Part shown: positions 26,084 through 56,441 of the stretch, piece after piece | Layout of the letters: each line of letters starts with the position of its first letter | Position numbering within the stretch: position 1 is the first letter of the stretch | Source of the DNA: Candidatus Thioglobus sp. NP1 | GTDB lineage: Bacteria; Pseudomonadota; Gammaproteobacteria; PS1; Pseudothioglobaceae | Reading direction: 5' to 3' | Length of the DNA stretch: 64,000 nt | NCBI RefSeq assembly: GCF_003326015.1 | Contig: NZ_CP023860.1 | Coordinates: forward strand, 992,001-1,056,000 | Program-made: the position numbers and the translations under genes | Notes under the pieces: model-generated | What the model saw: only the letters and a program-made list of their open reading frames with translations | The model's database searches: none | Told to the model about the DNA's origin: nothing

Positions 26084-26139
26084 GTATGTTGATAATTGCA
26101 AATGAAAAAAACTACGATTATTAATAACGAGGAGAAAAT

Positions 26140-27417: not shown

Positions 27418-27426
27418 ATTGGTAAT

Positions 27427-27465: not shown

Positions 27466-27485
27466 AAAATAATAAAGTAATAGAT

Positions 27486-31417: not shown

Positions 31418-31470
31418 TAATAAGCTTTTATAACCCTTTAATAATCATTTTTTTGATGGGTCTCACATAG

Positions 31471-31496
31471 TGGAACAAAGTGTTATTATATGGAAA
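31471..31496. promoter_or_regulatory. Candidate IclR operator of the galactoside operon
   Basis: Half-site TGGAAC (31471-31476) is followed by GTGTTATTATATGGAAA (31480-31496). It matches the site at 45525-45549 in 21 of 25 positions and shares the GTTTCA-N5-TGRAAM layout with 52452-52468. A TATACT that could be a -10 box is at 31527-31532, and the binding protein ATG is at 31622. Confidence 0.55.
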
Positions 31497-31621
31497 AAAA
31501 ATTATAATTATGAATTGATATGTATGTATACTAAATGGCGATTCCTCATATTTAATGTCTCAACGGCTAACAAATATGTAATCACGACAGATTTATTTTT
31601 TAATAAAAGGAGATTAATATA

Positions 31622-32854
31622 ATGAAAAAAATCTTTAAAACCCAAATAGCACTTGCTTTAGCCACTATCTTGGCTGGAACTTCTGCTATTGCTGGAACGC
31701 TTGTCATCAATGGTGACACGTCTGATCCAGCGCCAAAGGCGGCATTTCAAGCTGTTATTGATGGCTTTGAAGCTGAGAATCCAGACGTAAACGTTGTTTA
31801 CAATCTTTTTGATCATGAAGGCTATAAGGCAGCTATCCGTAACTTTTTAACTGCTGACGCTCCAGATATAGCTTTCTGGTATGCAGGTAACAGAATGGCT
31901 CCATATGTTGATGCTGGGCTTTTTGCTCCAATTGATGATGTTTGGGCTGAGCAAGGTCTTTATACTCTAATGAAATCATCAGCTGCAGGTATGACTATGG
32001 ATGGTAAGAAATGGGGTATTCCATTTTCATACTACCAGGTAGGAATGTACTATCGTCAAGATATCTTTGAAGATTTAGGTATTGCTGTTCCTAAAACTTG
32101 GGATCAGTTCATGTCAGCTAGTGCCACACTTAAAGCAAATGATATTACTCCAATAACAATTGGTACTAAATATTTATGGACTACTGGTTGTATCTTTGAT
32201 TACTTAAATCTTAGAACAAATGGCTATGATTTCCATATGGATCTTGCAAATGGAAACGTTGCTTGGACCGATGACAGAGTGCGCGCTACTATGGCTAAAT
32301 ATAAAGAGCTTGTAGATAAGGAATACTTTGATGAAAATCATGCTTCATACACTTGGCAAGAAGCCTTAGGTCCTCTTGCTTCTGGTGAGGGTGCAATGGT
32401 TTGTATGGGTAACTTTGCAGTAGCTCCATTACGTGAATTAGGTTTGGATGATTCTCAGTTAGGTTTCTTCCAGTTTCCAGAAATTACTCCAGGAATTCCT
32501 ATGGCAGAAGAAGCTCCAAGTGATACACTTCACTTAACTGCGAATGCTAAAAACCCTACTGATGCTAAGCGTTTTCTAGCTTATGCTGCGCGTGCTGATG
32601 TTCAAACATCATGGAATGCAGCGCTTGGTCAGTTGCCTACTAATTCAGGTGCTGAAGTTGCTGATGATAAGTTTATTAAAGCTGGATTTGAACAGCTAAA
32701 TAATGCGTCAGCTCTTTCTCAGTATTTTGATCGTGATATTCCTGCTGAAATGGCTGCATTAGGTATGGAGTCTTTACAAGAGTTCATGGTTAAACCTGAG
32801 CGTCTAGAGAAGATTCTAGAGCGTTTAGAAAAAGCTCGTCAAAAACTTTATTAA
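31622..32854 (+). CDS. Sugar ABC transporter binding protein, galactoside operon
   Basis: This 410-residue family-1 solute-binding protein has a signal peptide (MKKIFKTQIALALATILAG, cleavage after AIA). The mature part includes APDIAFWYAGNRMAPYVDAG, KKWGIPFSYYQVGMYYRQDI and a late EAPSDTLHLTANAKNPTDA. These are typical of CUT1 sugar receptors. It heads an operon with two permeases, alpha- and beta-galactosidase and galactose-oxidising enzymes, so its ligand is probably a galactoside such as galactosylglycerol or an oligosaccharide. AAAAGGAG precedes the ATG, and a strong terminator follows the gene. Confidence 0.9.
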   Translation: MKKIFKTQIALALATILAGTSAIAGTLVINGDTSDPAPKAAFQAVIDGFEAENPDVNVVYNLFDHEGYKAAIRNFLTADAPDIAFWYAGNRMAPYVDAGLFAPIDDVWAEQGLYTLMKSSAAGMTMDGKKWGIPFSYYQVGMYYRQDIFEDLGIAVPKTWDQFMSASATLKANDITPITIGTKYLWTTGCIFDYLNLRTNGYDFHMDLANGNVAWTDDRVRATMAKYKELVDKEYFDENHASYTWQEALGPLASGEGAMVCMGNFAVAPLRELGLDDSQLGFFQFPEITPGIPMAEEAPSDTLHLTANAKNPTDAKRFLAYAARADVQTSWNAALGQLPTNSGAEVADDKFIKAGFEQLNNASALSQYFDRDIPAEMAALGMESLQEFMVKPERLEKILERLEKARQKLY

Positions 32855-32872
32855 GCAATAAAGTTTTACTAT

Positions 32873-32912
32873 GTCCCGTGTTCAAGTATTCTTGGCACGG
32901 GACTTTTTTTTA
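32873..32912 (+). terminator. Terminator between binding protein and permease genes
   Basis: GTCCCGTG (32873-32880) pairs perfectly with CACGGGAC (32896-32903), with an inner CAAG/CTTG stem, followed by nine T. It is another internal terminator after a binding protein gene. Confidence 0.88.
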
Positions 32913-32934
32913 ATATTTTTAATATTAAATAGTT

Positions 32935-33822
32935 ATGTATTCTTATTGGAAAAATAATCAATTAAAGTTAACACCTTGGATTTTTCTAGCTCCTGGCATT
33001 TTTATGTTTTGCCTGTATGTTATTTTTCCAATTTTTCAATCTATAAGTCTAAGTTTTTATGATTGGGACGGGCTTGGTGAAAAGACTTATATTGGTGTTG
33101 AAAACTATATAGAACTTCTCGATGATGAGGATTTTTATACATCTTTAAAAAATAATTTAATATGGTTGATTCTAACCTTTGTTGCAATCCCAGCAGGCTT
33201 ATTTTCAGCGCTATTTTTAAACCAAACAGTAAGAGGCATAAGATTTTATAAGTCTCTATTTTTCTTTCCATTTGTAATTTCTCAAGTTGTTGTTGGCATG
33301 GTTTTTAGTTGGTTTTATGATCCTACAAATGGACTTTTGAATCAAATGCTTGAAGGAATGGGATTTAATCCAGTGGCGATATTGGCAGACGAGGATTATG
33401 CTACTTATGGAATTATTGCTGCTAGTTTATGGCCCCAAACTGCATATTGTATGATTTTGTTTTTAACAGGACTTAATTCTGTAGATCCAGAACAAATTGA
33501 AGCAGGCCGAATAGATAATGCAAGAGGCTGGAGAATGTTGTGGTACGTAATCTTGCCCCAATTAAAGCCTGCAACTTTTATTGCTGTGGTTGTTACAGTA
33601 ATTGGAGCACTAAGATCATTTGATTTGATTTCAGTTATGACTAGGGGTGGTCCATGGGGATCAACACGTGTTTTAGCTTATTTTATGTACGAAAAAGCTT
33701 TTTCAGAGTATGGATATCGAATGGGCTATGCGGCTGCAATTGCTGTTATTTTGCTTGCTATAATGATGGTTTACATTGCAATAATTCTTTATAGAATGTA
33801 CCGCACTGAGAAAGGAGTTTAG
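32935..33822 (+). CDS. Sugar ABC transporter permease (MalF-type), galactoside operon
   Basis: This 295-residue permease has six membrane helices and begins after a short basic segment (LTPWIFLAPGIFMFCLYVIF). The EAA loop is QIEAGRIDNARGWRMLWYVI (about 186-205), followed by DLISVMTRGGPWGSTR. It pairs with the next gene. No ATPase gene is adjacent; the MalK-class ATPase at 43547-44605 is the likely partner. Confidence 0.92.
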   Translation: MYSYWKNNQLKLTPWIFLAPGIFMFCLYVIFPIFQSISLSFYDWDGLGEKTYIGVENYIELLDDEDFYTSLKNNLIWLILTFVAIPAGLFSALFLNQTVRGIRFYKSLFFFPFVISQVVVGMVFSWFYDPTNGLLNQMLEGMGFNPVAILADEDYATYGIIAASLWPQTAYCMILFLTGLNSVDPEQIEAGRIDNARGWRMLWYVILPQLKPATFIAVVVTVIGALRSFDLISVMTRGGPWGSTRVLAYFMYEKAFSEYGYRMGYAAAIAVILLAIMMVYIAIILYRMYRTEKGV

Positions 33823-33824
33823 CA

Positions 33825-34673
33825 ATGTTTCCAACCCCAATTGAAAGAACAAAACCATTAACACGAAGACTCTATAAAATTGCATTACCTATTTCAATTA
33901 TTATTTGGCTGCTTCCACTTATTGCAGTTGCTTTAACTTCAATTCGATCTGGGGCAGATATTAATTCTGGCAATTATTGGGGAATGCCAACTTCCTTTAA
34001 TTTAATTGAAAACTATACTTTTATATTTACTGACTCCCCAATTGCATACTACATTCTAAATAGTTTTAAAGTTACTATTCCAACTGTTATTGGTGCTTTA
34101 GCTATTTCAAGCCTTACAGGTTTTGCGCTAGGTGTTTATAAATTTAAACTTAATTTATTAGTATTTTTTATGTTTGTAGCAGGAAACTTTATTCCTTTTC
34201 AAATACTGATGGTGCCAGTTAGAGACTTGTCACTCTCCCTCGGGCTTTACAACACAATATCTGGTCTTGTGGCTTTTCATATTGCCTTTCAATCTGGCTT
34301 TTGTACTTTTTTTATGCGTAACTTTATACGTGCACTTCCTTTTGAGTTAATTGAGGCTGCAAGAGTTGAAGGTGTGTCGGAGTTTAAAATTTTCTGGTAC
34401 ATCGTATTGCCATTAATGCGCCCTGCATTAGCTGCTTTATCAGTACTAATTTTTACTTTTGTGTGGAATGATTTTTTCTGGGCATTAGTTTTAACTCAAG
34501 GTGCAGACACTATGCCAGTTACTGCTGGCATAAATTCTCTTAATGGGCAATGGATTACCAATAACCATTATGTTGCAGCTGGTTCAATAATTGCTGCACT
34601 TCCACCAGTTGTGATGTTCTTTTTGATGCAAAAACACTTTATAGCTGGACTAACGCTTGGATCTGTTAAGTGA
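33825..34673 (+). CDS. Sugar ABC transporter permease (MalG-type), galactoside operon
   Basis: This 282-residue MalG-class permease has the EAA loop LIEAARVEGVSEFKIFWYIV (about 175-194) and WNDFFWALVLTQG after it. It starts two bases after the MalF-type partner, and its stop overlaps the GTG start of the alpha-galactosidase gene by four bases. Confidence 0.92.
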   Translation: MFPTPIERTKPLTRRLYKIALPISIIIWLLPLIAVALTSIRSGADINSGNYWGMPTSFNLIENYTFIFTDSPIAYYILNSFKVTIPTVIGALAISSLTGFALGVYKFKLNLLVFFMFVAGNFIPFQILMVPVRDLSLSLGLYNTISGLVAFHIAFQSGFCTFFMRNFIRALPFELIEAARVEGVSEFKIFWYIVLPLMRPALAALSVLIFTFVWNDFFWALVLTQGADTMPVTAGINSLNGQWITNNHYVAAGSIIAALPPVVMFFLMQKHFIAGLTLGSVK

Positions 34674-36754
34674 CTAATCAATGGCGCCTTGATACTCTTG
34701 ATCAAACTTTGGTTTTATTATCTTTGAATAATAGGCTTCCATGCCTTATATATTGGGGTCGTCGTTTACCTGACAATGAAAATCTTAACTCCTTATCTAC
34801 TGCAGTGGCTAAAGATTGGGGGGACAACTTGCTGGATAAAGTTCCAGAGTTATCTGTCTTACCTGAGCAGTCTGCAAATTTTCCAGGACAGCTTGGATGC
34901 AAAATGAGAGGCCTTGATGGAATGATTCTCTCTAGTAACTTTGTTTTTCTAAAAGATGAAGCAAAAGACAACTCATTGTCCTTAGTTTTTTTGGACAAAG
35001 CCATAGAGCAAACATATACATTGACAATCATTTCCTTTGAAGAAAGTAATATGTATAGCCTTAGTGCCAAAATTGACAGCAAAAAGCCAATATTTATGGA
35101 CTGGTTTTCTGCTCCAGTAATTCTAGCACCTCAAAATAGTAATGAAATGATTGACTATGGAGGTCAATGGGGTGGTGAATTCAGAAGCCAAATAACTCCA
35201 TGGGTAACTGGTACTCATCTGCGTGAGTCAAGGTCTGGAACAACAAGTCATGCAAATTTCCCTGGCCTTCTTATTCCAACCATTGAAAGCTCAGAGAATT
35301 CAGGGTCTTGTTATGGTTTTCACTACGGCTGGTCTGGAGGTCATCGTATGATTGCAGAGCAACTTCCAGATGGTCGTAGGCAAGTTCAATTTGGCAATAC
35401 TGAAAATAGTGATTTAATTTCTGGAAATAGCTTCGAAACAGCAAAGCTATATATTAGCCATTCTAGTAACGGAATTAGCGGGGTTGGTAAGTCATTTCGA
35501 TCTCACGTAGCTAATTCAATTATTAAGGCACCTAAGGACAATGTTAGGCCTGTTCATTACAATTGCTGGGAGGCTATATATTTTGATCATAATATTGACC
35601 AATTAAAAGAAATAGCTAGCCTTGCTTCTGAAATTGGTGCTGAAAGGTTTGTGCTGGATGACGGCTGGTTTAAAGGACGTGATAGTGCTAACTCTAGTCT
35701 TGGTGACTGGGATGTTGACAAGAATAAATATCCTTCAGGATTGCAACCATTAATTAGCCATATCCATTCTCTTAAAATGTCTTTTGGTTTGTGGTTTGAG
35801 CCTGAGATGGTTAGCCCTAATAGTAATCTTTATCGACAGCATCCTGAATGGATAATGGGCCACAAAGATCAAACTCTTGGACGAGATCAGTTGGTTCTTA
35901 ATATTGCCATTAAAGATGTTGAGGATTACCTTTTTAAGAAAATTTCAGCATTGTTAACTGAGTATCCAATTGAGTATATTAAGTGGGACCATAATCGAGT
36001 TCTGCCTTATCCCGATGCTTCGCAAACAAAAAGCCTGTATGTTCTTCTAAAGCGAATTAGATTGGCGTATCCAAAAGTTGAGATTGAATCCTGCTCATCA
36101 GGAGGTGGACGAATAGATTATGGCATTCTAGAAAATACACAAAGAGTTTGGCTTTCAGATAGTAATGATGCAATTGAAAGGTTACGTATTCAGCATGAGG
36201 CAATTTTATGGTTGCCTACTTCGATAACGGGCAGTCATGTTGGGCCAAAGGTTTGTCACACCTCTGGGCGTGAACTTCCACTAGCATTCAGAGCATGGGT
36301 GGCAGCTCAAAGGCATATGGGATTTGAGATGGATCCGCGTGCACTGTCACCTTCAGATAAAGCACTGCTTAAAGCCGTTACTAATTGGTGGAAGGAGAAT
36401 CGTCAGTGGATGAAAGATGCAAATATTTTACGATTACCTTGTGTCGATAAAAGCATAACTGCTGAAATTCAAATTAATTCAAGTGAGAATCACTTTGTTG
36501 TTTTCGCTGGCCAAAATGCCTTATCAGAATTTAGCTCACCAGTTCCATTGGTCCTATCTGGGCTAGACTCAATGGCAATGTATAATGTCTCGTTATACAA
36601 CAAAAATCATATCAACTCTCTTGGTAAATCAGATGGTGGTCTTTTGCAAAAAACATTGAAGCTTAGTGGGCAATTTTTAATGAACCATGGACTGCAGTTA
36701 CCTAAAGCTTTTCCAGCTAGCATGATGGTAATAGAAGGGGATAAAGCTGCATGA
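34670..36754 (+). CDS. Alpha-galactosidase (GH36)
   Basis: This 694-residue glycoside hydrolase matches GH36: PVHYNCWEAIYFDHN, RFVLDDGWFKGRD, LWFEPEMVSP, then YIKWDHNR (nucleophile Asp near 440), ESCSSGGGRIDYG and WLSDSNDA (acid/base Asp near 497). It has no signal peptide, so it acts on imported alpha-galactosides in the cytoplasm. The start is GTG, and it overlaps both neighbours. Galactose released would enter the oxidative route encoded next. Alpha-galactosylglycerol or digalactosylglycerol are candidate substrates in a marine setting (inference). Confidence 0.94.
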   Translation: MTNQWRLDTLDQTLVLLSLNNRLPCLIYWGRRLPDNENLNSLSTAVAKDWGDNLLDKVPELSVLPEQSANFPGQLGCKMRGLDGMILSSNFVFLKDEAKDNSLSLVFLDKAIEQTYTLTIISFEESNMYSLSAKIDSKKPIFMDWFSAPVILAPQNSNEMIDYGGQWGGEFRSQITPWVTGTHLRESRSGTTSHANFPGLLIPTIESSENSGSCYGFHYGWSGGHRMIAEQLPDGRRQVQFGNTENSDLISGNSFETAKLYISHSSNGISGVGKSFRSHVANSIIKAPKDNVRPVHYNCWEAIYFDHNIDQLKEIASLASEIGAERFVLDDGWFKGRDSANSSLGDWDVDKNKYPSGLQPLISHIHSLKMSFGLWFEPEMVSPNSNLYRQHPEWIMGHKDQTLGRDQLVLNIAIKDVEDYLFKKISALLTEYPIEYIKWDHNRVLPYPDASQTKSLYVLLKRIRLAYPKVEIESCSSGGGRIDYGILENTQRVWLSDSNDAIERLRIQHEAILWLPTSITGSHVGPKVCHTSGRELPLAFRAWVAAQRHMGFEMDPRALSPSDKALLKAVTNWWKENRQWMKDANILRLPCVDKSITAEIQINSSENHFVVFAGQNALSEFSSPVPLVLSGLDSMAMYNVSLYNKNHINSLGKSDGGLLQKTLKLSGQFLMNHGLQLPKAFPASMMVIEGDKAA

Positions 36755-38466
36755 GTAAAGCTAACAAGCGTCGATCATCGAATTGGTATGGAAAAATGGA
36801 TAAAGATGGTTTTATCCATCGAAGCTGGATGAAAAGCCAAGGATTCCCAGACCATGCTTTCGATGGACGCCCAATAATTGGTATATGCAATACTTGGTCT
36901 GAGTTAACCCCATGTAATGCAGGTTTAAGAACTTTAGCTGAAGGCGTTAAGAGGGGTGTTTGGGAGTCAGGAGGCCTACCACTTGAGTTCCCTGTAATGT
37001 CATTAGGTGAAACCCAAATGAAACCAACCGCAATGCTTTTTCGAAATCTTTTATCTATGGATGTCGAGGAAAGTATTCGCGCTTATGGAATTGATGGCGT
37101 TGTTTTACTAGGCGGCTGTGATAAAACTACCCCAGGACAATTAATGGGTGCAGCAAGTGTCGATTTGCCGACAATTGTTGTTTCTTCTGGCCCAATGCTT
37201 AATGGTAAATATAAAGGCCAAGATATTGGTTCTGGAACTGATGTTTGGCGCTTTTCTGAAGACGTTAGAGCTGGTGATATGTCTTTACAAGATTTTATGT
37301 CTGCTGAGACAGGAATGAGCCGCTCATCTGGGGTTTGCATGACAATGGGGACTGCATCCACAATGGCAAGCTTGGTTGAAGGGATGGGCTTAAGTTTACC
37401 AACGAATGCGGCTATTCCAGCCGTTGATGCAAGGAGAATGGCTCTTGCGCATATGACAGGAAAGCGCATCGTAGAAATGGTGGAAGAGGGTTTGAACTTA
37501 TCCAAAGTTTTAACAAAAGAGAGCTTTCAAAATGCGATTACACTGAACAGCGCAGTTGGCGGTTCAACTAATTCAGTAATTCACTTGTTGGCTTTAGCGG
37601 GAAGAGCTGAAATTGAACTTACTTTGGAGGACTTTGAGAAAGCGGCAGATATACCGCTTCTTGTTAATTGTATGCCTTCAGGTAAGTACCTAATGGAAGA
37701 TTTTTGTTATGCAGGAGGAGTTCCAGCAGTATTAGATCAAATTAAGAATCATATTAAGCCAGCTAATACGGTTCTAAACAAAGATATAACCAGCTACTTT
37801 AAAGGTGCTGAAACATTCAATGAGGACGTCATTCGGCCAATAAATAACCCACTAAAGCCTGCTGCAGGTTTAAAAGTATTGAGAGGGAATTTGGCTCCAA
37901 ATGGAGCAATTATTAAGCCTGCTGCTGCAACACAAGAGCTATTAAAGCATGAAGGCTTGGCTTATGTATTTGAAGACATTGAAGATCTAAAGGCTAATAT
38001 TGATAGACCTGACCTTCCAGTAACAAAAGACTCTATTCTAGTTTTAAAGGGGTGTGGACCGAAGGGCTATCCAGGAATGCCTGAGGTTGGTAATATGCCA
38101 ATACCAAAGGTATTAATTGAGCAAGGTGTTCGAGATATGATACGTATTTCAGATGCTCGAATGTCAGGCACTGCCTTTGGAACTATAGTGCTTCATGTGT
38201 CTCCTGAGGCAAATGTAGGTGGCCCTATTTCAATAGTTGAGACTGGTGACCTTATTCGACTTGATGCTTTTAATGGAGTGCTTGAGCTTTTAGTTGCAGA
38301 GTCTGAAATTGACAAACGTCTTAAGGCAAGGAAAGAGCCAAAAGTAAATTACACCCGTGGATACGCAAAACTTTATATTGAACATGTCATGCAAGCTGAC
38401 AAAGGTGCAGACTTAGACTTCCTAGTAGGCAAAGATACTCGCCTTCCAACACGAGAATCTCATTAA
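36751..38466 (+). CDS. IlvD/Edd-family sugar-acid dehydratase, probably galactonate dehydratase
   Basis: This 571-residue protein is of the IlvD/Edd family in the branch of L-arabinonate and related aldonate dehydratases (GKMDKDGFIHRSWMKSQGFP at the N-terminus). Three Cys expected to hold the Fe-S cluster are C55 or C46 (GICNTWSELTPC), C123 (GGCDKTTPGQ) and C196 (SSGVCMTMGTAS). It is followed by SDR dehydrogenase, KDGal kinase and KDPGal aldolase, so its substrate should be D-galactonate, giving 2-keto-3-deoxygalactonate. This replaces the enolase-superfamily DgoD used by E. coli. Confidence 0.88.
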   Translation: MSKANKRRSSNWYGKMDKDGFIHRSWMKSQGFPDHAFDGRPIIGICNTWSELTPCNAGLRTLAEGVKRGVWESGGLPLEFPVMSLGETQMKPTAMLFRNLLSMDVEESIRAYGIDGVVLLGGCDKTTPGQLMGAASVDLPTIVVSSGPMLNGKYKGQDIGSGTDVWRFSEDVRAGDMSLQDFMSAETGMSRSSGVCMTMGTASTMASLVEGMGLSLPTNAAIPAVDARRMALAHMTGKRIVEMVEEGLNLSKVLTKESFQNAITLNSAVGGSTNSVIHLLALAGRAEIELTLEDFEKAADIPLLVNCMPSGKYLMEDFCYAGGVPAVLDQIKNHIKPANTVLNKDITSYFKGAETFNEDVIRPINNPLKPAAGLKVLRGNLAPNGAIIKPAAATQELLKHEGLAYVFEDIEDLKANIDRPDLPVTKDSILVLKGCGPKGYPGMPEVGNMPIPKVLIEQGVRDMIRISDARMSGTAFGTIVLHVSPEANVGGPISIVETGDLIRLDAFNGVLELLVAESEIDKRLKARKEPKVNYTRGYAKLYIEHVMQADKGADLDFLVGKDTRLPTRESH

Positions 38467-39236
38467 TGAATAATTACGCAATTTTTAAAGATTTAGAGGA
38501 TGCTTCAGTTTTTATAACTGGAGGTGGCTCAGGAATAGGGGCTTCATTGACAGAGGGCTTTTTAGCTCAAGGCGCTAAAGTTGCCTTTGTGCAGAGATCA
38601 GATTGTGATGAATTTCTAGATGAAATTTCCTCAAAATATAAATATAATCCCTTATTTATTAAATGTGATATTACTGATATTGATGCTCTAAAGTCTGCAA
38701 TTTCAGATGCTAGCAAGGCTAATGGTGGAATTAATGTGCTTATAAATAATGCCGCTAATGACACACGCCACACACTTGCTGCAATGACTACAGAAGAATG
38801 GGATCAGTCAATTAATATCAATCTAAGGCCTCATTTCTTTACAGCACAGGCTGTGGCTCCTTTTATGAAAACTCAAGGTGGCGGCAGTATTATTAATTTT
38901 TCATCAAACTCTTACATGATGGGCAATGCAGGCTTGCCTGCTTATGTTACTTCTAAAGCTGGAATTACAGGTCTAACAAGAAGTTTAGCGAGAGAGCTTG
39001 GCGCTGATGGCATTAGAGTGAACACACTAATCCCAGGTTGGGTTTTAACTGAAAGACAGCTAAAGCTGTGGGCAAATGAAAAAGATTTAGCAATTCACAT
39101 GGATAAACAATGCATTAAGGAACACTTATTGCCTAACGATTTAATTGACTCCACTTTATTTTTAGCTTCGAATGCATCACGAATGATGACTGGCCAAGCT
39201 TTAGTGATTGATGGTGGCGTAGTAGTTACAGGATAA
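38466..39236 (+). CDS. SDR-family sugar dehydrogenase, probably galactose 1-dehydrogenase
   Basis: This 256-residue short-chain dehydrogenase has the cofactor motif TGGGSGIGASL (about 18-28), NNAANDTRH, and the catalytic Tyr/Lys in AYVTSKAGITGL. The end IDGGVVVTG is standard. It overlaps the dehydratase by one base. In the De Ley-Doudoroff route a NAD(P)-dependent aldose 1-dehydrogenase makes galactonolactone; this is the only candidate in the operon. Aldose specificity cannot be read directly. Confidence 0.85.
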   Translation: MNNYAIFKDLEDASVFITGGGSGIGASLTEGFLAQGAKVAFVQRSDCDEFLDEISSKYKYNPLFIKCDITDIDALKSAISDASKANGGINVLINNAANDTRHTLAAMTTEEWDQSININLRPHFFTAQAVAPFMKTQGGGSIINFSSNSYMMGNAGLPAYVTSKAGITGLTRSLARELGADGIRVNTLIPGWVLTERQLKLWANEKDLAIHMDKQCIKEHLLPNDLIDSTLFLASNASRMMTGQALVIDGGVVVTG

Positions 39237-39243
39237 AAAAATA

Positions 39244-40155: not shown

Positions 40156-40165
40156 GAGTAAGAAT

Positions 40166-41631: not shown

Positions 41632-41638
41632 GAATACT

Positions 41639-43540: not shown

Positions 43541-43546
43541 GAAAGG

Positions 43547-44605: not shown

Positions 44606-44623
44606 ATCAAAGGTGTCCTTATA

Positions 44624-45412
44624 TTAGTTGTTTTGTTCAGGAAAATTCCATGCACCAGCTTCTTTCCCAATTAGTTCTGAGGTCTTAAGTAGTTGAGGCT
44701 TGAATTCTTGAAGGCTCTCTAAGCTGTGAATGTCAATTGAGCTGGTGATTGATAAGCCACCAATCACTCTACCTTTTGAAGACAAAATAGGAGACGAAAT
44801 ACAAATAATTTTTACTTCATGCTCCTGTTTATCAAAGGCTATTCCTTGCTTTTTTATTATAGTTAGTTCTTTGCGAAGCGCTTTTTCTGAGGTAATTGTA
44901 AAGTCAGTATATTTAAAGAATGCTTGTTTAGAAATAACTCTACTTAGCGCATCTTCATCTAAAAATGCCATCATTGCCTTTCCTACTCCAGTGCAGTAGG
45001 CAGGGCCAACTTTGCCAGCTTGAGAGTACATTTCAATTGGTGAGCTAGGGTTTCGTTTGTCAACATAGAGTACCTGACCATTATCAAGCTGTGCAAGATG
45101 AACTGTTTCACCTACTTTCTCAGAAAGTTCATCAATAAATGGGAGTGCTATTGGGGCTAAAGAGCTTTGAAGCCATGCTGCATGAGCCATCCGAACTAGT
45201 TTTAAGCCTAACTTATAAGTCTGCTCTTCTTCATTGTAACTCAACATATTTTGGTTAAGTAAGGTTTGAAGCAATCTATAAAGAGTTGCTTTAGGATATT
45301 TGCTAGTTTTAAGAAGACTTGAAAAGCGCACAGGTGTTCCAAGTTCTGCAACTTCATTTAGAACATCTAAAGCTTTTCCTACTGTTCCATCACCCCTTAT
45401 ATCTACAGCCAT
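44624..45412 (-). CDS. IclR-family transcriptional regulator
   Basis: This is an IclR protein of about 262 residues, counted from the ATG at 45412; an in-frame TTG at 45424 would add four. The N-terminal winged helix-turn-helix contains VGKALDVLNEVAELG and YPKATLYRLLQTLL. The C-terminal effector domain has VHLAQLDNGQVLYVDKRN, AYCTGVGKAMMAFL and a GLSITSSI ending. It is upstream of the ABC ATPase gene and divergent from glpK. The pseudo-palindromes at 31471, 45525 and 52452 are its likely targets, linking galactoside, glycerol and the second sugar module. Confidence 0.9.
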   Translation of the reverse strand: MAVDIRGDGTVGKALDVLNEVAELGTPVRFSSLLKTSKYPKATLYRLLQTLLNQNMLSYNEEEQTYKLGLKLVRMAHAAWLQSSLAPIALPFIDELSEKVGETVHLAQLDNGQVLYVDKRNPSSPIEMYSQAGKVGPAYCTGVGKAMMAFLDEDALSRVISKQAFFKYTDFTITSEKALRKELTIIKKQGIAFDKQEHEVKIICISSPILSSKGRVIGGLSITSSIDIHSLESLQEFKPQLLKTSELIGKEAGAWNFPEQNN

Positions 45413-45524
45413 ATTCTCATACAAATATTATTGAATTTAAACTTCTTGTTGTTCACTATTAACAGTCTATTTAGGGTTATAATTTTAGCAGATTATGTAT
45501 ACTATTTTTATTAGTTTACAATAG

Positions 45525-45550
45525 TAGAACAAAGTTTCATTATTTGGAAA
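45525..45550. promoter_or_regulatory. Candidate IclR operator between iclR and glpK
   Basis: TAGAAC (45525-45530) is followed by GTTTCATTATTTGGAAA (45534-45550). It matches the 31471 site in 21 of 25 positions. It lies 15-40 bases before the glpK ATG and downstream of TATACT at 45498-45503, a repressor-like position for glpK; it also lies on the upstream side of iclR. Confidence 0.55.
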
Positions 45551-45564
45551 TAGTATTTATTATT

Positions 45565-47064
45565 ATGGTTAGTTCAGAAAAATATATTCTATCAATTGAT
45601 CAGGGCACAACCTCTTCTCGAGCAATTTTATTTGATATAAATTACCAAATTATTGCAGTAGGTCAAAAAGAATTTACGCAATTTTTCCCAGATTCTGGAT
45701 GGGTTGAGCATGATCCAGAAGAAATTTGGCTTTCCACATTAGAAAGTTGCAATAAAGCTATTAATGAGGCAGATATAAGGCCAAATCAAATTGCTTCAGT
45801 AGGAATTACTAATCAACGAGAAACAACCGTCGTTTGGGATAAAAAAACGGGAGAAGTAATTTACAATGCAATTGTATGGCAAGATAGAAGAACCTCTGAT
45901 AAATGCCTAAAGCTTCGAGAATTTGGCAATGAGGAAATGGTTACGCAAAAAACTGGACTTCTGCTTGATCCTTATTTTTGTGCTACTAAGATTGCCTGGA
46001 TTCTTGATAATGTCAATGGTGCTAGAAAAAAAGCAAATGCTGGCGAATTACTATTTGGAACTATAGATAGTTTTTTATTATGGCGATTAAGTAATCATGA
46101 GGTCCACTCCACAGATGCAACAAATGCTTGCAGAACTCTTTTGTATAACATTCATGATGGTTGCTGGGATGATGATTTACTAGAGCTATTTGATATACCT
46201 AAATCAATGCTCCCAAAAGTTTATGATAATGCTGCAAATTTTGGTAATATTCATGACAGTATATTTGGTGCTGAGATACCTATCTCTTGCTTAATTGGAG
46301 ATCAACCATCTGCCCTAGTTGGCCAAGCTTGCTTTAAACCTGGAATGGTTAAATCAACCTATGGGACTGGCTGTTTTGTTTTGATTAATACTGGAGATAA
46401 GCCAGTTAAATCTAATAATAAATTATTAACTACTTTTGCCTTTCAAATTAATGGAAAGCCATGCTTCGCACTAGAAGGTTCAATATTTGTAGCTGGTGCA
46501 GCCGTTCAGTGGCTTCGAGATGGACTAAAATTGATAGAGTCAGCTGAACAGTCAGAAGTTCTTGCTATGGAGGCTGATTCTAGTCAAGAGGTTTATTTAG
46601 TTCCAGCATTTGTTGGGCTTGGTGCGCCTTATTGGGATCCAGATTGTAGAGGTGCACTTTATGGCCTTACAAGAAATACAGGCCCCGCTGAAATTGCAAA
46701 AGCCACACTTGAGTCTGTGTGTTATCAAACATCTGATCTTTTGACAGCAATTTCAAAAGATTTGGGAGAAAATAAATTAAATGCTATCAGAGTAGATGGA
46801 GGGATGGCAGCCTCAAATTGGACAATGCAAACCCTTGCTAATTTAGTTCAACTGCCAGTAGATAGGCCAAAAAATTTAGAGACAACAGCTTTAGGTGCTG
46901 CGTATTTAGCCGGTATGCAGGTTGGTTTCTATCCTTCTATGGATGAGTTTGCAAAATCCTGGCAATCTGAGAATCAATTTAATTCAATAATAAATGATGA
47001 TCAAAGAGAGAAAAAACTCGCGGGCTGGAAGGATGCAGTTGAAAGAACACTTTCTAATAAGTAG
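45565..47064 (+). CDS. glpK: Glycerol kinase
   Basis: This is a 499-residue FGGY kinase with the GlpK pattern: [18 protein letters not shown] at the start, [48 protein letters not shown] and [15 protein letters not shown]. Length matches E. coli GlpK. The ATG at 45565 fits the family start; an in-frame TTG at 45544 would overlap the operator. It makes G3P for GlpD (21660-23234). It is not in the GlpR region but behind an IclR-type site, suggesting its glycerol comes from sugar-glycerol cleavage. Confidence 0.94.
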
Positions 47065-47100
47065 TTCAAACGACTAGCTAATTTCATTAAAATAAATTAT

Positions 47101-48018
47101 ATGATTACATGTGTTGGCCCTATTTTTCTCGACAGAGTTGTTAGAATCGATAGCTTTCCTGAAAAACCAATAAAACTAGTGGCAAATAGTCTAGAGAAAA
47201 GGCTTGGTGGGCCAGCTCCTGTAGCTAGTTTTGCTATTAAGTCTTTAGGTGGAGATGCTGAATTTATTGGTCGTTTTGGTGATGATGACGCAGCTAGTTT
47301 TTTAAAGTCTAAGTTTGATAAAGCTAATATTCAGATTAATAAGTCATTATTTATAAATGATGCACAAAGCTCTCAGAGTCATATTTTTGAAGATTTAGAG
47401 GGTGAAAGGATGCTTGCAGTCTTTAATGAGGAAAAACTTATTAATGTGAAATCTTTGCCAGCTTTTGATTTTTCATCTAAACAATCCTATTTGGTTGATA
47501 CTAATTGGGTTGAAGCCTCCCATTATGTTGCAATAAATTGTTATAAAAATAAAATTAACTGTGTGGTAGATCTGGATAATTTTATAAATAGTAAACTTAT
47601 TGAAGAGGTTGTTAATTCAGCATCTTTCCCAATTTTTTCTGAGATTGGTCTTAAGCGTTATACAAATAAGGAGTCTATTTCTGATTCATTAGAAAGCTTA
47701 TACACCTCAAATCCTAAGTTTTATGCAGTTACCATGGGCCCAAAAGGAGTTTATTGGATAAATAATGGAGAAATTTTTCATTGTGAATCACCTCAAGTTA
47801 AGGCTATAGAAACCAATGGTGCTGGTGATATTTTTCATGGAGCATTTATAAGATTTATTGAACTCAATAAAACCATCAAAGAGGCAATTGAGTTGGCAAC
47901 TGCATGTGCATCCTTAAAATGCACGAGAGTAGGTGGTATAGAGTCCCTTCCAAGTTTTGATGAAGTCATAGAGTTTTCAAAACATTTAAAATTATCTAAA
48001 AAAAATAATTCATTATGA
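47101..48018 (+). CDS. PfkB-family carbohydrate kinase
   Basis: This 305-residue ribokinase-fold kinase has the N-terminal pattern VGPIFLDRVVRIDSFPEKP and RLGGPAPVASFAIKSLGG. The C-terminal anion hole/catalytic base is in ETNGAGDIFHGAFIRF (near 240-255; Asp base). The substrate is not readable from the sequence. Sulfofructose kinase YihV and tagatose-6-phosphate kinases are in this family, which fits the LacD/YihT-like aldolase at 51399-52418. It overlaps the next gene by four bases. Confidence 0.85.
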   Translation: MITCVGPIFLDRVVRIDSFPEKPIKLVANSLEKRLGGPAPVASFAIKSLGGDAEFIGRFGDDDAASFLKSKFDKANIQINKSLFINDAQSSQSHIFEDLEGERMLAVFNEEKLINVKSLPAFDFSSKQSYLVDTNWVEASHYVAINCYKNKINCVVDLDNFINSKLIEEVVNSASFPIFSEIGLKRYTNKESISDSLESLYTSNPKFYAVTMGPKGVYWINNGEIFHCESPQVKAIETNGAGDIFHGAFIRFIELNKTIKEAIELATACASLKCTRVGGIESLPSFDEVIEFSKHLKLSKKNNSL

Positions 48019-48941
48019 AAAAAGTCCTAATAACAGAATTTATGGAGCAAGAGAGTGTTGATAAAATATCAGAGCTTTTTGATGTAAATTATGATCCAAG
48101 TCTGCATGAAAAACTTGAGATTTTAAGTTCTCAAATAGTTGATGTAGATGCCGTCATAGTAAGAAATAAAACTCAACTCAATGAAGAGCTATTAACTCAA
48201 GCAAAAAATCTTTGTTTTGTTGGAAGATTAGGCGTTGGTTTAGATAATATTAACACTGATTTCTGTTCTAGCAACAACATTAAAGTTCAACCTGCAACTG
48301 GAATGAATGCAGACTCTGTGGCTGAATATGTTATTAGTTGTGCACTCTCCTTATTAAAGAATATCCCAATTTCACATAATGGAACTATCATCGGTAATTG
48401 GCCAAGAACAACTATTGAGTCAAGAGAACTTGGGGGTAAAACTTTAGGACTTCTTGGCTTTGGTGTAATTGGGAAAAAAGTATGTCGATTAGCGCAGGTT
48501 TTTGGAGCAAAGGTAATTGCTTATGATCCTTTTGTTCCGGACTCTGATGCTAAAAAATATAATGTCTCGTTGGTTAGTCAAAATGATATTTTTGTTAATT
48601 CTGATGTAATATCGATCCACCTTCCTCTTACAGATGAAACTAAAGATTTAATTAATAAAAGCTCATTTAGCTTAATGAAAAGGGCTCCAATTGTTATAAA
48701 TTCATCAAGAGGATCAATTGTTAATGAGAAAGACTTATTAAAAGCTTATAGTGATAATTTGATTAAAGGTTTTGCGCTAGATGTTTACAGCTCTGAGCCT
48801 GTAAACGAAAACTTCTATAAACAGGTAAATGGTTCAATGAATTGTATTCTAACGCCTCATACTTCAGGAGTTACAGTTGAGTCAAATATTAGAGTGAGTC
48901 AGTTTATTGCTGACAAAACAATTCAGTTTTTAGGTAACTAG
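48015..48941 (+). CDS. D-isomer-specific 2-hydroxyacid dehydrogenase (SerA/SlcC-like)
   Basis: This 308-residue dehydrogenase has a NAD motif LGLLGFGVIGKKVCRLAQ (about 148-165) and catalytic regions VGRLGVGLDNIN (Arg 75 region), NSSRGSIVNEKDLL (Arg) and LTPHTSGVT (His, preceded by Glu in SSEP). It resembles SerA catalytic domains without the ACT domain. (S)-sulfolactate dehydrogenase is in the same family; hydroxypyruvate/glyoxylate reductase is an alternative. It converges with the next gene with a three- to four-base overlap. Confidence 0.85.
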   Translation: MKKVLITEFMEQESVDKISELFDVNYDPSLHEKLEILSSQIVDVDAVIVRNKTQLNEELLTQAKNLCFVGRLGVGLDNINTDFCSSNNIKVQPATGMNADSVAEYVISCALSLLKNIPISHNGTIIGNWPRTTIESRELGGKTLGLLGFGVIGKKVCRLAQVFGAKVIAYDPFVPDSDAKKYNVSLVSQNDIFVNSDVISIHLPLTDETKDLINKSSFSLMKRAPIVINSSRGSIVNEKDLLKAYSDNLIKGFALDVYSSEPVNENFYKQVNGSMNCILTPHTSGVTVESNIRVSQFIADKTIQFLGN

Positions 48942-50026
48942 AGATTAAACTCACTCATTTGAACGATTCTTCCTTCTTTAATTGACTTTTCAGCAGCCTC
49001 ACCAATTGCTACCGCAATAAGGCCATCTTTAAGTGATACTTCTGGTTTAGTATTATTTTGAATAGCCTTAATAAAGGAAGTGTGTTCATAATATGTAGAT
49101 CCATGGTGATGACCTACCTCATGAATTTTTGCATCAACCTCAATATTTTCCTTTAACGCAGTATTATCTTCTCTAAGACCAATTCGAATATCTGAGTTGG
49201 TGATTCCAGATTTATTAGAGGGTACTTCAGTTTCTATTTTTCCAATTGAGCCAACAGCACAAAGCTCTTCTTGATATTCTGAATTCTCAGCAAACATACA
49301 TAAGTCAAGGAATGCTCTAACGCCATTATCAAAGTCAACAATAACAAAAGCATTATCAAGGATGTCTGGAGTCATTCCATCATAAGTCTCATTTAAATGA
49401 TTTACATCTTGATTGCCACTGGCATAAACTTTTAATGGCTCACTTTGAGCAATGAGCCTCATTAGGTCAAAGAAATGACAGCACTTTTCAACTAAAGTAC
49501 CACCAGTTTTTATTGCAAATCTATTCCAGTCATCAACTTTATGAAGAAAGGGAAAGCGGTGCTCCCTTATCGAGAGCATCTTTAAATCACCAATAGTGCC
49601 ATTATGTATCTCTTGAATCATCCTTTGTACAGGAGGCATATAGCGATACTCCATTGCAGTCCAAATTACTCCAGAATAATTTTTTGCCATTTCTTCAAAT
49701 TCTTGGCAGTCTTTTACTGTCGTACAAAGTGGTTTTTCAATTAAGAGATGCGCTCCTGATCTCATAACATCTTTTAAAACGTCAATATGAGAAAAATTAG
49801 GCGTTGCAATTATAAATGCATTTGCAATATTAGCCTCAATAAGGTCATTGTAATCTTCAAAAATAGCTACTTCATTGTTAAGTAAGTCAAGACATTCATT
49901 TATCGATTTTTGGCTCGTATCGCACAATGCAACTACCTCAGCATCTTCAATAATCTCAATATTAAGTATGTGCTCTTGACCCATACAGCCGCCACCGATA
50001 ATAGCGTATTTAATTTTTTTAATCAC
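48938..50026 (-). CDS. Gfo/Idh/MocA-family oxidoreductase
   Basis: This 362-residue protein has a Rossmann motif YAIIGGGCMGQEHILNIE (about 7-24), FIIATPNFSHID, LLIEKPLCTT with the EKP motif, and GGTLVEKCCHFFDLMRL carrying the catalytic-region His and Asp. Members oxidise or epimerise sugars or, in NAD-dependent glycosidase families, cleave glycosides. It is translationally coupled to the isomerase-like gene (four-base overlap). A role as glycosidase or sugar dehydrogenase for the same sugar is inferred. Confidence 0.85.
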   Translation of the reverse strand: MIKKIKYAIIGGGCMGQEHILNIEIIEDAEVVALCDTSQKSINECLDLLNNEVAIFEDYNDLIEANIANAFIIATPNFSHIDVLKDVMRSGAHLLIEKPLCTTVKDCQEFEEMAKNYSGVIWTAMEYRYMPPVQRMIQEIHNGTIGDLKMLSIREHRFPFLHKVDDWNRFAIKTGGTLVEKCCHFFDLMRLIAQSEPLKVYASGNQDVNHLNETYDGMTPDILDNAFVIVDFDNGVRAFLDLCMFAENSEYQEELCAVGSIGKIETEVPSNKSGITNSDIRIGLREDNTALKENIEVDAKIHEVGHHHGSTYYEHTSFIKAIQNNTKPEVSLKDGLIAVAIGEAAEKSIKEGRIVQMSEFNL

Positions 50027-51399
50027 AGTGTATAGGTAGGTATGTTCATTTTTTTGCCAAAATGAATAAGCTTGTCAGATATATCACCATAAGTAAAAGC
50101 AACATGATGCTCTAGACCCCCCTTAAACATTTGTTCTAATTTATCGGGACTATCATCACCAAGACTTATTACTCCTGAGGTTCCAGAGAAAGAGTTTGGT
50201 CTATCTATAACATGACCTTTCATAATAAAGAATTGAAGTTTGTTTCTTGCTTTTGAAACTCTGAAGATTGTTATTTGTCCCTGCTTTAAACTGAAATCAT
50301 GAAGAAGAGGTTTTTTTCTATTTGAGTGGATACCTGATTTAGCGGTACCTTCTTTTGCCATACTAATTGGAGCAAGTCCACAATGCCAAAAAACTAGAGA
50401 ATTATCGGACTTATCAACATCAACAATATCTACCAAAAGTGAAGGGCTGTCATTCATCTGATTAAGTATATTACAGCTAATCCCTCCTAAAACGTCAGCT
50501 TCACAAGCACAGCTAACTTTTTTCTCATTCATCATAGCCATTGGACCACAAGAAGCACAACCATACTCAGTAAAAGTTTCTGGCCAACATCTAATAGCAA
50601 AGGCATCGAGATTATGCTTATCTTTTAGATTTTCAAGACCATGATAGATTGAAAGACTTTTATCAAACTCCTCCTGAACAAGCTCCTCAGTCCCTTGTAG
50701 ATAGCTTGAAACTGTATTTTTAGTTTCAGTAATAGTGGCAGCTGCAACATCTTTTGCCTCATCAAATAAGTCATCTAAATCAAGATCAACTAGTGAAACG
50801 TTAAGCTTGGTTGTTACCTCATTTGAGTCATAATCACAGGTGTCAAAACCCTCAGGCCTAGTTCCAATAATTCCAATTGTCTGCTTGTCAATGGTGTAAT
50901 TAAAATCTACTTCATTGCCACTCAAGGTAGCTTTATTCCATAATAGGGGTTGATTATCATTACTACCATTAATAAAATTTAAAAATAAAGACTTATTAAC
51001 ACTATCATCACTTTCAATAATTACAAACTCAGGAGTAATATTGTTCTTGATTAAAGAATGCATTCCAAGATTGAGTCCACAAATAGAGTTTAATCTTAAT
51101 CTTCCACCAGTCCTTGGTTCTGGGAATGAGACAATACATAGTGGTTTATTAATTGATTGAGCGAAGTTTAGAAGAAATTTTGCATCAGTAAATGTCGTTT
51201 GAAAAAGAAAAATTTTCTCACACTCATGGCTTTTAAAAAATGATAAAGCCTTATCAGCATCTTCATCATTTGTAACAAGTTTATCAAAGCCAATTGCATT
51301 AGGTGACAGGGATAACAGAATTGATTTAGCTTTACTAAATTTTGATTCAGCAAACTCAACATCAAATGTTTCTCTAGCTAGTGCTAAATATCCAATCAT
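50023..51399 (-). CDS. L-fucose-isomerase-like protein (COG2407 type)
   Basis: This 458-residue protein fits the FucI/AraA-like isomerase fold. AIRCWPETFTEYGCASCGPM (near 280-300) and SCACEADVLGGIS (metal Glu) are typical. GLEHHVAFTYGDI near the C-terminus supplies the metal His. Ketol isomerase activity on an aldose is the expected reaction, and it would precede the PfkB kinase and LacD-like aldolase. It is not a canonical FucI (about 590 residues). The substrate is unknown. Confidence 0.75.
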   Translation of the reverse strand: MIGYLALARETFDVEFAESKFSKAKSILLSLSPNAIGFDKLVTNDEDADKALSFFKSHECEKIFLFQTTFTDAKFLLNFAQSINKPLCIVSFPEPRTGGRLRLNSICGLNLGMHSLIKNNITPEFVIIESDDSVNKSLFLNFINGSNDNQPLLWNKATLSGNEVDFNYTIDKQTIGIIGTRPEGFDTCDYDSNEVTTKLNVSLVDLDLDDLFDEAKDVAAATITETKNTVSSYLQGTEELVQEEFDKSLSIYHGLENLKDKHNLDAFAIRCWPETFTEYGCASCGPMAMMNEKKVSCACEADVLGGISCNILNQMNDSPSLLVDIVDVDKSDNSLVFWHCGLAPISMAKEGTAKSGIHSNRKKPLLHDFSLKQGQITIFRVSKARNKLQFFIMKGHVIDRPNSFSGTSGVISLGDDSPDKLEQMFKGGLEHHVAFTYGDISDKLIHFGKKMNIPTYTL

Positions 51400-52418
51400 T
51401 AAAAACCTCCGAAGTTCTTAGTAAATTTTTCAGGTTCTTGAATTTTAAAGCCATTTATAAAAAATGTTTCAAGAGATTGAGCTTTTTTAGCTGTCAAATC
51501 ATTAAGTTTTTTAATATAAGTTACAGAGTCATTTTTTAAACCTTTTTCAACTAGGCTAATATCTGGATAGTTATTAAAAGCATCAAGCCAAATCGTTCTT
51601 CCAGCAAGGTAACCTGAGGCACCATTTTTATAAGCAAGTTCAAGACATTTATAAAAGGAGTCTTTACCCATTCCAGATGATAAGACAACCCAAGGCTTAT
51701 CATTGGTCGCTTCAGAGAGCTCTTTAAAAGCTAGTTCAGTCTTCCCACTAATCTCATTTTCAAGTTGATCACTATCAACAGGACTTTCTAACTTAAAAAT
51801 ATCAACTTTGTATTCATCTTTGGCGAACTCTTTGACACTATCAATTACATGACGTGACTTTTTTTGTTTTTGTTCTTGATATTCTTTTGTATGGTTTTCA
51901 TCGTCTTGAAAAGGGTAAACGAGAAGTTCTAATAGAAAAGGAATATTATATTTTTCACACTCTAGACCAACTTGTTTGACATATTTTTTTTGATGCTCAA
52001 TTGACTTTGCCTCAGCATCAGGTCGATACCAAGCTAAAACTTTGACTGCGTCTCCACCTGCTTTTTTAATTTTCTCTACACTCCAGTTATCAATATTTTC
52101 TGAGAATCGACCTTGTGCTGTTTCAACGAAACTATGTTCTTCAAGAGTTATAACAAGTCCTTTAGAGTTATTATATTGAAGAATATTTGATAATGAATAA
52201 TGAGGATCCATTAGAATGGCTGTAGCTAAATGAGATAAGTTTGTGGTAATTAATTTTTTACATTCAACTACTTCAGCATAGTTATGCTTTCTGCCTTTTG
52301 CCTTAGATATGATATTAAAGATGGGAGGTCTCTGGTCTACAGCAAGCATTTGAAAATGATTATTATCTGTACAAAGTTTTTTTAAATGTATTAACTTTCC
52401 AATATTTTTCGTTGGCAT
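51399..52418 (-). CDS. LacD/YihT-like class I aldolase
   Basis: This 339-residue TIM-barrel aldolase has FQMLAVDQRPP at the N-terminus, AILMDPHYSL, GGDAVKVLAWYRPDAEA (Schiff-base Lys region), VDIFKLESPVD, VVLSSGMGKDSF and ASGYLAGRTIW. This order fits tagatose-1,6-bisphosphate aldolase LacD and sulfofructose-1-phosphate aldolase YihT. Cleavage of a ketose-1-phosphate to DHAP and a C3 aldehyde is expected. It is first in the three-gene minus-strand operon, coupled to the isomerase by a one-base overlap. Confidence 0.83.
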   Translation of the reverse strand: MPTKNIGKLIHLKKLCTDNNHFQMLAVDQRPPIFNIISKAKGRKHNYAEVVECKKLITTNLSHLATAILMDPHYSLSNILQYNNSKGLVITLEEHSFVETAQGRFSENIDNWSVEKIKKAGGDAVKVLAWYRPDAEAKSIEHQKKYVKQVGLECEKYNIPFLLELLVYPFQDDENHTKEYQEQKQKKSRHVIDSVKEFAKDEYKVDIFKLESPVDSDQLENEISGKTELAFKELSEATNDKPWVVLSSGMGKDSFYKCLELAYKNGASGYLAGRTIWLDAFNNYPDISLVEKGLKNDSVTYIKKLNDLTAKKAQSLETFFINGFKIQEPEKFTKNFGGF

Positions 52419-52451
52419 TTTTTAATGATCTCTAGTTAGAATAATTATGAG

Positions 52452-52468
52452 GTTTCATATACTGAAAC
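52452..52468. promoter_or_regulatory. Candidate IclR operator between aldolase operon and sugar importer
   Basis: GTTTCATATACTGAAAC is a near-perfect palindrome with six-base arms and a five-base spacer, the same layout as at 31480 and 45534. On the minus strand a GAAC half-site precedes it at about the same distance as at the other two. It is 34 bases from the aldolase ATG and about 150 from the binding protein ATG. Confidence 0.5.
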
Positions 52469-52615
52469 TTGGGTTCATATTTCTGTTTATTATTTTACTG
52501 ATATATATCAATTCATGTATACTCGAATTTCATTAAATTTAAATATTTTGCTTTTAACTAGGTTTTTGAATTTAATAGAAAAAACAATTTAAAACAATAA
52601 CTATTGGAGAAAGAA

Positions 52616-53866: not shown

Positions 53867-53898
53867 TTAATTATTCAGTTATACTAAAGTTCTAAACT

Positions 53899-53934
53899 TT
53901 AAGGCCGTCTTTTATGGCGGCCTTAATTTATTTT
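53899..53934 (+). terminator. Terminator between binding protein and permease genes
   Basis: TTAAGGCCG (53899-53907) pairs perfectly with CGGCCTTAA (53918-53926) across a ten-base loop, followed by TTTATTTT. Same placement as the hairpins at 27427 and 32873. Confidence 0.85.
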
Positions 53935-53951
53935 AAAACCCAATTCTAATA

Positions 53952-56437: not shown

Positions 56438-56441
56438 AATT

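Follow-up and report, generated by a model that had tools for sequence, protein, structure and literature searches.

The stretch analysed here (the window) comprises 64,000 nucleotides of the genome of Candidatus Thioglobus sp. NP1, a single contig of 1,689,404 bases, and encodes a regulator of the IclR family on its minus strand (44624..45412, start taken at 45412). We propose, with a probability of about 0.8, that this one regulator controls, through tandem palindromic operators, genes for the use of galactosyl-glycerol, the glycerol kinase gene glpK together with iclR itself, and genes for the use of sulfoquinovosyl-glycerol. A single IclR regulon joining a galactoside operon, glpK and a second sugar module had been suggested in an earlier note on this DNA; our analysis supports it, as the tandem is confined to these promoters and is conserved in relatives.

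The operator is 37 bp long and consists of two 17-bp palindromes (approximately GTTYCA-N5-TGRAAC) in tandem, with a 3-bp spacer and a 20-bp pitch. At the galactoside promoter it occupies 31460..31496 (plus strand) and reads GTCTCACATAGTGGAAC-AAA-GTGTTATTATATGGAAA; in the iclR/glpK intergenic region it occupies 45514..45550 (plus strand) and reads GTTTACAATAGTAGAAC-AAA-GTTTCATTATTTGGAAA. The operator of the second module (52452..52477, plus strand; GTTTCATATACTGAAAC-TTG-GGTTCA) is a single perfect palindrome followed by the half site GGTTCA. The earlier note had described three sites with arms GTTTCA-N5-TGRAAM. Those at 45534-45550 (site 2, GTTTCATTATTTGGAAA) and 52452-52468 (site 3, GTTTCATATACTGAAAC) are exact, but the GTTTCA arm is absent from site 1 (31480-31496), where GTGTTATTATATGGAAA has two mismatches to the pattern. 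A count by eye confirmed the noted identity of 21 of 25 bases between 31471-31495 and 45525-45549. The GAAC of the proposed upstream half-site GAACAAA is also present; however, it is the right end of a full upstream palindrome (GTCTCACATAGTGGAAC, 31460-31476, and GTTTACAATAGTAGAAC, 45514-45530), located in each case 20 bp ahead of the palindrome of site 1 or 2.

The 17-bp motif alone is too weak, and the tandem is the specific unit. In the 1.69-Mb genome, the 17-mer pattern of the earlier note had 59 and 57 matches on the two strands with at most one mismatch, versus 27 and 24 in a reversed control, and the symmetric GTTYCA-N5-TGRAAC was found at 38 places versus 8 in the control. Thirteen of the 15 such places examined lie inside open reading frames (ORFs) of at least 120 amino acids, and the third exact genome match of the noted pattern, at 1509412, is within a gene; the 17-mer by itself was thus rejected as a regulon marker, being too frequent. 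When the window was scanned with the tandem, the three noted sites ranked first, second and third (4, 4 and 6 mismatches of 24), the next best match having 7. The 37-mer, allowing at most 3 mismatches, gave eight matches in seven of the 29 genomes of the window's genus and none in the control; in the window's genome it matched sites 1 and 2 only (control, 0). The motif is therefore no commoner elsewhere, once it is taken as the tandem (sites 1 and 2) or as a composite of operator and -10 element (galactoside and second-module promoters, see below): both are confined in the genome to these promoters.

Among 83 genomes of the family surveyed (labelled G, the window's genome being G000), we detected an iclR orthologue in 15, all inside the window's genus, and the operator upstream of iclR is kept in all 15. 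The galactoside binding protein was found in 14 genomes, 13 of which have the operator at its promoter; the exception, G029, has no operator there and no detected iclR. The importer protein of the second module was found in 15 genomes; G018 (start missing) and a second G017 fragment were dropped, and 14 promoters were aligned. Seven carry the operator (G000, G007, G010, G011, G015, G019 and G023) and seven do not (G005, G006, G009, G013, G017, G029 and G032), G006 keeping a half site. Exact matches to the 17-mer GTTYCANATANTGRAAC numbered 17 in the 29 genus genomes, all in genomes with a detected iclR, and were distributed over 11 galactoside, two sulfoquinovose, two ugp and two pckA promoters. 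We rejected pckA as a regulon member: among the genomes scanned, the exact single palindrome precedes it just in G005 (L210:2131-2147) and G023 (L213:2694-2710), whose proteins are 99% identical, and no site with fewer than two mismatches was found upstream of pckA in G000, G007, G019, G021, G029 and G031 (a G026 fragment was not scanned).

The same operator was found far outside the genus. A profile search of the relatives' contigs with the IclR alignment identified 125 relatives, of which the best 80 were retained. Thirteen of these belong to the window's group; the other 67 are distant, mostly Rhodobacterales, and have IclR proteins 50-64% identical. The orthologous galactoside binding-protein gene is oriented divergently to iclR in 65 of these 67 distant loci, and in the other two (L116 and L141) iclR is divergent from other galactose genes. 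A tandem of the same pitch lies within 450 bp upstream of iclR in 66 of the 67, with at most one mismatch in its right palindrome, while no second tandem match at up to 5 mismatches of 24 was found on either strand of the 828,334 bases of distant loci. Since the tandem is located upstream of iclR and nowhere else in these loci, we conclude from sequence comparison that it is the operator of this IclR, whose ancestral target was the galactoside operon. Conservation in relatives with the same operons, the test named in the earlier note, was thus observed for the iclR and galactoside promoters, and in only half of the cases for the second module. The Rhodobacterales loci have in common with the window the orthologous regulator, the importer and galactose genes and the tandem operator, and in most distant loci an ABC (ATP-binding cassette) ATPase gene adjoins iclR. 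They differ in that iclR is divergent from the binding-protein gene, whereas in the window it is divergent from glpK, and in having no match to the window's glpK or sulfoquinovose-module genes within the 6-kb flanks. No publication on such an IclR-controlled galactoside operon in Rhodobacterales was found in the literature searched. Because the distant orthologues adjoin galactose genes and have no glpK match within 6 kb, a galactose-derived metabolite may be guessed, cautiously and by analogy with KdgR, as the effector.

The promoters have a common architecture. Each of the three promoters contains one copy of the 9-mer ATGTATACT, and the window has no other (three copies versus 0.63 expected, a number attained in one of 100 shuffles). 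The copies are at 31524..31532 before the galactoside operon, with a fixed spacing to the operator in the composite matches described below, at 45495..45503 before glpK, conserved in the iclR/glpK alignment, and at 52515..52523 before the second-module importer, all on the plus strand. It is not enriched genome-wide (11 places versus 14 in the reversed control), and was therefore rejected as the site of a second regulator. Of the eight places outside the window, four are inside ORFs and four are 100-187 bp ahead of an ORF start on the same strand; the longer ATATATAT-N-AATT-N-ATGTATACT is common to two of the latter, the promoter of site 3 and one place in G007 (78 bp upstream of a gene for a binding protein). 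We infer that ATGTATACT is a core-promoter (-10) element, with TATACT as the -10 hexamer. The composite AGTATACAT-N42-50-GTTYCA had 23 matches in the 29 genomes and none in the control: 13 galactoside promoters, six second-module promoters (including that of G006, without detected iclR), two ugp promoters and two others, one before the binding-protein gene in G007 and one inside an ORF in G013. Assuming that transcription starts 7 bases after the -10 hexamer, the operators would span approximately -79 to -43 at the galactoside promoter, -78 to -53 at the sulfoquinovose promoter and +5 to +41 at glpK. Their location upstream of the core promoter in the first two and downstream in the third suggests that IclR activates the galactoside and sulfoquinovose promoters and represses glpK. 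As a side observation, ATATATAT-N-AATT-N-ATGTATACT (31524, 45495, 52515; L238, L239, L217) could represent a strong core-promoter type that precedes genes for binding proteins and a gene resembling sat (all named by eye).

Where the second module lacks the operator, a gene of another regulator family is found instead. A DeoR-family gene is located between the aldolase and the importer in G005, G013, G017 and G032, and adjoins the importer in G006 and G009; in G029 such a gene adjoins the galactoside ATPase gene, that is, the place that iclR has in other genomes. Hence all seven operator-less modules belong to genomes with a DeoR-family gene beside the importer (six) or the galactoside genes (one), while none of the seven operator-bearing module promoters has one beside it; G019 does encode a DeoR homologue (67% identical), located elsewhere. 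In the tree of importer proteins, the well-supported branches force at least three changes of operator/DeoR state. A candidate operator for DeoR is the motif TTTTGRTAT-N6-9-AAATATCGAA, found upstream of the module in G005, G006, G017, G029 and G032; the G013 stretch, which contains Ns, gave no match. By genome comparison, IclR and DeoR-family regulators thus alternate at this module, so that its link to IclR appears to be a lineage-variable recruitment, half of the relatives (7 of 14) being associated with a DeoR-family regulator instead. In G029 the candidate DeoR site also occurs upstream of the galactoside operon, inside a 55-base identity between galactoside and importer promoters (L204:16043-16097 and L205:1780-1834). 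Common assemblers use words of 55 bases, and this identity runs to the contig end; an assembly effect is therefore possible, and we count this promoter as weak evidence at most for DeoR rewiring. In E. coli, as far as the accessible part of the literature tells, sulfoquinovose genes are under the DeoR-family regulator CsqR (YihW), as gene order suggests for six relatives here, whereas the regulator in the window is of the IclR type and common to galactosides; a possible regulation by lactose is reported in the accessible part of PMC10991401. The window also contains, at 24276-30021, a block encoding a regulator like DeoR/GlpR, another sugar-type ABC importer (the third) and a protein of the endonuclease/phosphatase family; the same block adjoins the sulfoquinovose cluster in G005.

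The genes following the first tandem, all on the plus strand, encode a putative galactoside ABC importer with a binding protein and two permeases (31622..34673; SBP_bac_1 and BPD_transp_1 matched by the first two genes, the third assigned by position and ORF), a GH36 alpha-galactosidase family protein (34670..36754; Melibiase and Glyco_hydro_36N above cut-off), an oxidative galactose route (36751..41631) formed by an IlvD/Edd dehydratase, an SDR dehydrogenase, a DGOK kinase, a KDPGal aldolase and an SGL lactonase, and a GH42 beta-galactosidase family protein (41639..43540; Glyco_hydro_42, 477.5 bits). The head groups of digalactosyldiacylglycerol (DGDG) contain both alpha-linked and beta-linked galactose, and their breakdown requires such a pair of GH36 and GH42 enzymes. 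An ABC ATPase (43547..44605, minus strand; ABC_tran) is encoded downstream of iclR on the same strand, and glpK is at 45565..47064 (plus strand; TIGR01311, 692.7 bits, cut-off 590.35); G031 has glpD and glpK as a pair, oriented divergently to iclR. In G023, the frames of the galactoside binding protein, GH42 and glpD appear interrupted (L209:2950-4169, L209:12958-14857 and L070:5088-5768), by decay or sequencing error.

The second module, noted earlier as a sugar module with a LacD-like aldolase, is most likely devoted to sulfoquinovose catabolism. The protein encoded at 48938..50026 (minus strand) is a putative NAD-dependent sulfoquinovosidase of the GH188 type, matching 8qc2 (E 1e-112) and 8qc3 (E 1.6e-109), which are the GH188 enzymes FlSqgA and ArSqgA according to the accessible part of PMC10755693. 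All eight catalytic and sulfoquinovose-contacting residues taken from that part (K107, Y136, R166, L170, K172, E189, H193 and H321 in ArSqgA numbering, mapped by hand as chain number minus 13) are identical. Beside it are genes for a PfkB-family kinase, candidate sulfofructose kinase by its neighbours (47101..48018, plus strand), a D-2-hydroxyacid dehydrogenase resembling phosphoglycerate dehydrogenase (48015..48941, plus strand; profile match), a fucose-isomerase-type protein, candidate sulfoquinovose isomerase (50023..51399, minus strand; full-length match to NF048012), a LacD/DeoC-type aldolase, candidate sulfofructose-phosphate aldolase (51399..52418, minus strand; PRK12858 above cut-off, 8tnf 9e-86, YihT 4e-16), and an ABC importer, putatively for the same substrate (52616..57458, plus strand; SBP_bac_1, and BPD_transp_1 for the first permease, the second permease and the ATPase being assigned by ORF and position). 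The likeliest reading of the pathway is a route like the sulfo-Embden-Meyerhof-Parnas one, with a candidate for each step (sulfoquinovose isomerase, sulfofructose kinase and sulfofructose-phosphate aldolase), none above a step-specific cut-off. A similar gene set has been described beside GH188 (PMC11465081). The GH188 clusters in the accessible parts of PMC10755693 and PMC11465081, including an actinobacterial one with a Tyr variant, have in common with the window a GH188 enzyme, isomerase-, kinase- and aldolase-type genes and an ABC importer; unlike the Tyr-variant cluster, the window's enzyme keeps Leu at 170, and its module carries the galactoside operator of IclR. Elsewhere in the genome (L259:6812-11879; G000:C1, approximately 72811-77878) we observed a cluster of altronate/galactarate-dehydratase-like, HisD-family, SDR, zinc dehydrogenase and GntR-like genes with a TRAP transporter. 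It looks like a cluster of the dihydroxypropanesulfonate/sulfolactate kind (hps/suy), a possible outlet for the C3 sulfonate of sulfoquinovose. A gene for 8-oxoguanine deaminase (57504-58868; 676.6 bits, cut-off 532) follows the importer genes in the window, G005, G007 and G029, and adjoins glpK in G031 and G027.

The regulator itself has both domains of its family above the Pfam cut-offs (HTH_IclR, 31.3 bits, cut-off 22; IclR_C, 138.9-139.9 bits, cut-off 24), and palindromic operators are typical of this family. It scores below the cut-offs of the named NCBIfam equivalogs (BhcR, KdgR, IclR and PcaR/PobR), with 147.5 of 350, 120.8 of 275 and 93.5 of 380 bits for the first three, and has family and domains in common with the structures 1mkm, 1ysp (KdgR), 8eju (Pca-regulon regulator) and 2o99 (E. 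coli acetate repressor). Every position of the segment PKATLYR in the DNA-binding domain is identical to the window's IclR in over 90% of the distant orthologues. The 12 aligned genus sequences all have Lys at position 201, where the 67 distant ones have Gly (64) or Asn (3); at position 206 the genus has Ser, and 66 of the 67 have Ala. The IclR_C search of the genome found two genes, the window's and a divergent one near 1,197,000. The latter (G000:C1:1196807-1197211) has two partial IclR_C matches, and 17-mers with one mismatch are located close to it (1196541, 1197384 and 1197470).

We infer that IclR binds the tandem palindromic operators in the three promoter regions; the 20-bp pitch would place two dimers, on the two palindromes, on one face of the DNA. 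The targets would be the genes that import and degrade galactosyl-glycerol (importer, alpha- and beta-galactosidase, oxidative galactose route), glycerol kinase with iclR itself, and the genes that import and degrade sulfoquinovosyl-glycerol (importer, GH188 sulfoquinovosidase, isomerase, kinase, aldolase). The substrates would be deacylated head groups of monogalactosyldiacylglycerol (MGDG) and DGDG, and of sulfoquinovosyldiacylglycerol (SQDG), presumably derived from photosynthetic-membrane debris. Both kinds of substrate release glycerol, which would be their common product and explain the place of glpK in the regulon. The operators at the galactoside and sulfoquinovose promoters appear suited to activation and that of glpK to repression. 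With the galactoside operon as the ancestral member, the sulfoquinovose module would have been recruited by operator gain, where relatives have a DeoR-family regulator.

Several observations weigh against this model. At site 3 the second palindrome is incomplete, its right half being absent; the module operator is absent from G005, G032 and G017, which have iclR; and no iclR was found in G021 (70% complete) or G019 (65% complete, with a contig ending inside glpK), which have a galactoside operator and a sulfoquinovose operator with one mismatch, respectively. One distant locus (L142) has no tandem, the candidate isomerase scores 302.5 bits where the cut-off for SftI is 700, and GTTYCANATANTGRAAC is matched with at most one mismatch in 28 of the 29 genus genomes, iclR-less ones included, so that this level is prone to background. 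In an alternative reading, IclR controls only the galactoside operon and glpK/iclR, site 3 being a chance or relic palindrome and the module being under other control. The incomplete tandem at site 3 (6 mismatches of 24), its absence in 7 of 14 relatives and the frequency of the 17-mer in the genome would fit, but the palindrome of site 3 is exact and as far from the -10 element as that of the galactoside promoter, and the module operator is seen in seven genomes while being absent in six with a DeoR regulator beside the importer; we thus regard this alternative as unlikely.

The second module could instead serve to degrade a different sugar acid or sulfosugar, or an inositol-like compound, but this also seems rather improbable: the isomerase score, an aldolase nearest to PRK12858/8tnf and a generic kinase would allow it, whereas the GH188 match, which covers the full length and includes the sulfonate contacts R166, L170 and K172, and the resemblance of the gene set to the GH188 cluster of PMC11465081, argue for sulfoquinovose. 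Finally, the palindromes could belong to another or global regulator, with IclR a mere bystander. Although the genome has a second IclR-family gene, we consider this very unlikely, as 66 of the 67 distant loci have the tandem immediately before this iclR and nowhere else, all exact 17-mers in the genus come from genomes in which iclR was detected, and the iclR-less G029 has no operator at its galactoside promoter.

The regulon of IclR may extend further in two relatives. In G010 and G011, the tandem precedes, with the -10 spacing, the gene of a UgpB-type sn-glycerol-3-phosphate importer (tandem and ATGTATACT at L211:2846-2917 in G010:C1 and L212:2642-2712 in G011:C22); UgpB and UgpA of G010 score above their equivalog cut-offs (513.9 and 387.9 bits, cut-offs 411 and 335). 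Thylakoids contain the lipids MGDG, DGDG, SQDG and phosphatidylglycerol (PG), the bulk being galactolipids (accessible part of PMC5897459), so the regulon could there touch the head groups of all four. At somewhat less than even odds, we envisage a head-group regulon for photosynthetic-membrane lipids, in which IclR would sense a shared or galactose-derived signal and switch the use of MGDG/DGDG, SQDG and, in these two relatives, glycerol-phosphate head groups (as from PG), with glycerol catabolism as hub and the sulfoquinovose module moving repeatedly between IclR and a dedicated DeoR.

Taken singly, the elements of the proposed regulon (IclR regulators, galactoside operons, sulfoquinovose clusters) are of known kinds. 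We recognised no published description of an IclR link between galactosides and sulfoquinovose, or of the alternation with DeoR, from titles and the beginnings of abstracts, most subscription literature lying outside the search. The accessible part of PMC10504371 contains the words sulfoquinovose and Thioglobus once each, and that of PMC13372026 has no occurrence of Thioglob or regulat. Sulfoquinovose production is given as 10 billion tons per year in the accessible part of PMC10755693. Under the head-group reading, sulfolipid catabolism would be induced by galactolipid cues, and in this marine lineage organosulfur cycling would depend on the supply of galactolipids. A single regulator coupling the two would also provide a testable rule for the timing of sulfoquinovose degradation at sea. 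The 37-bp tandem would serve as a marker for finding the regulon elsewhere, and the repeated exchange of IclR and DeoR on one module would be a natural experiment in regulatory rewiring. The bacterium would then read photosynthetic-membrane debris as one food, via a single regulator.

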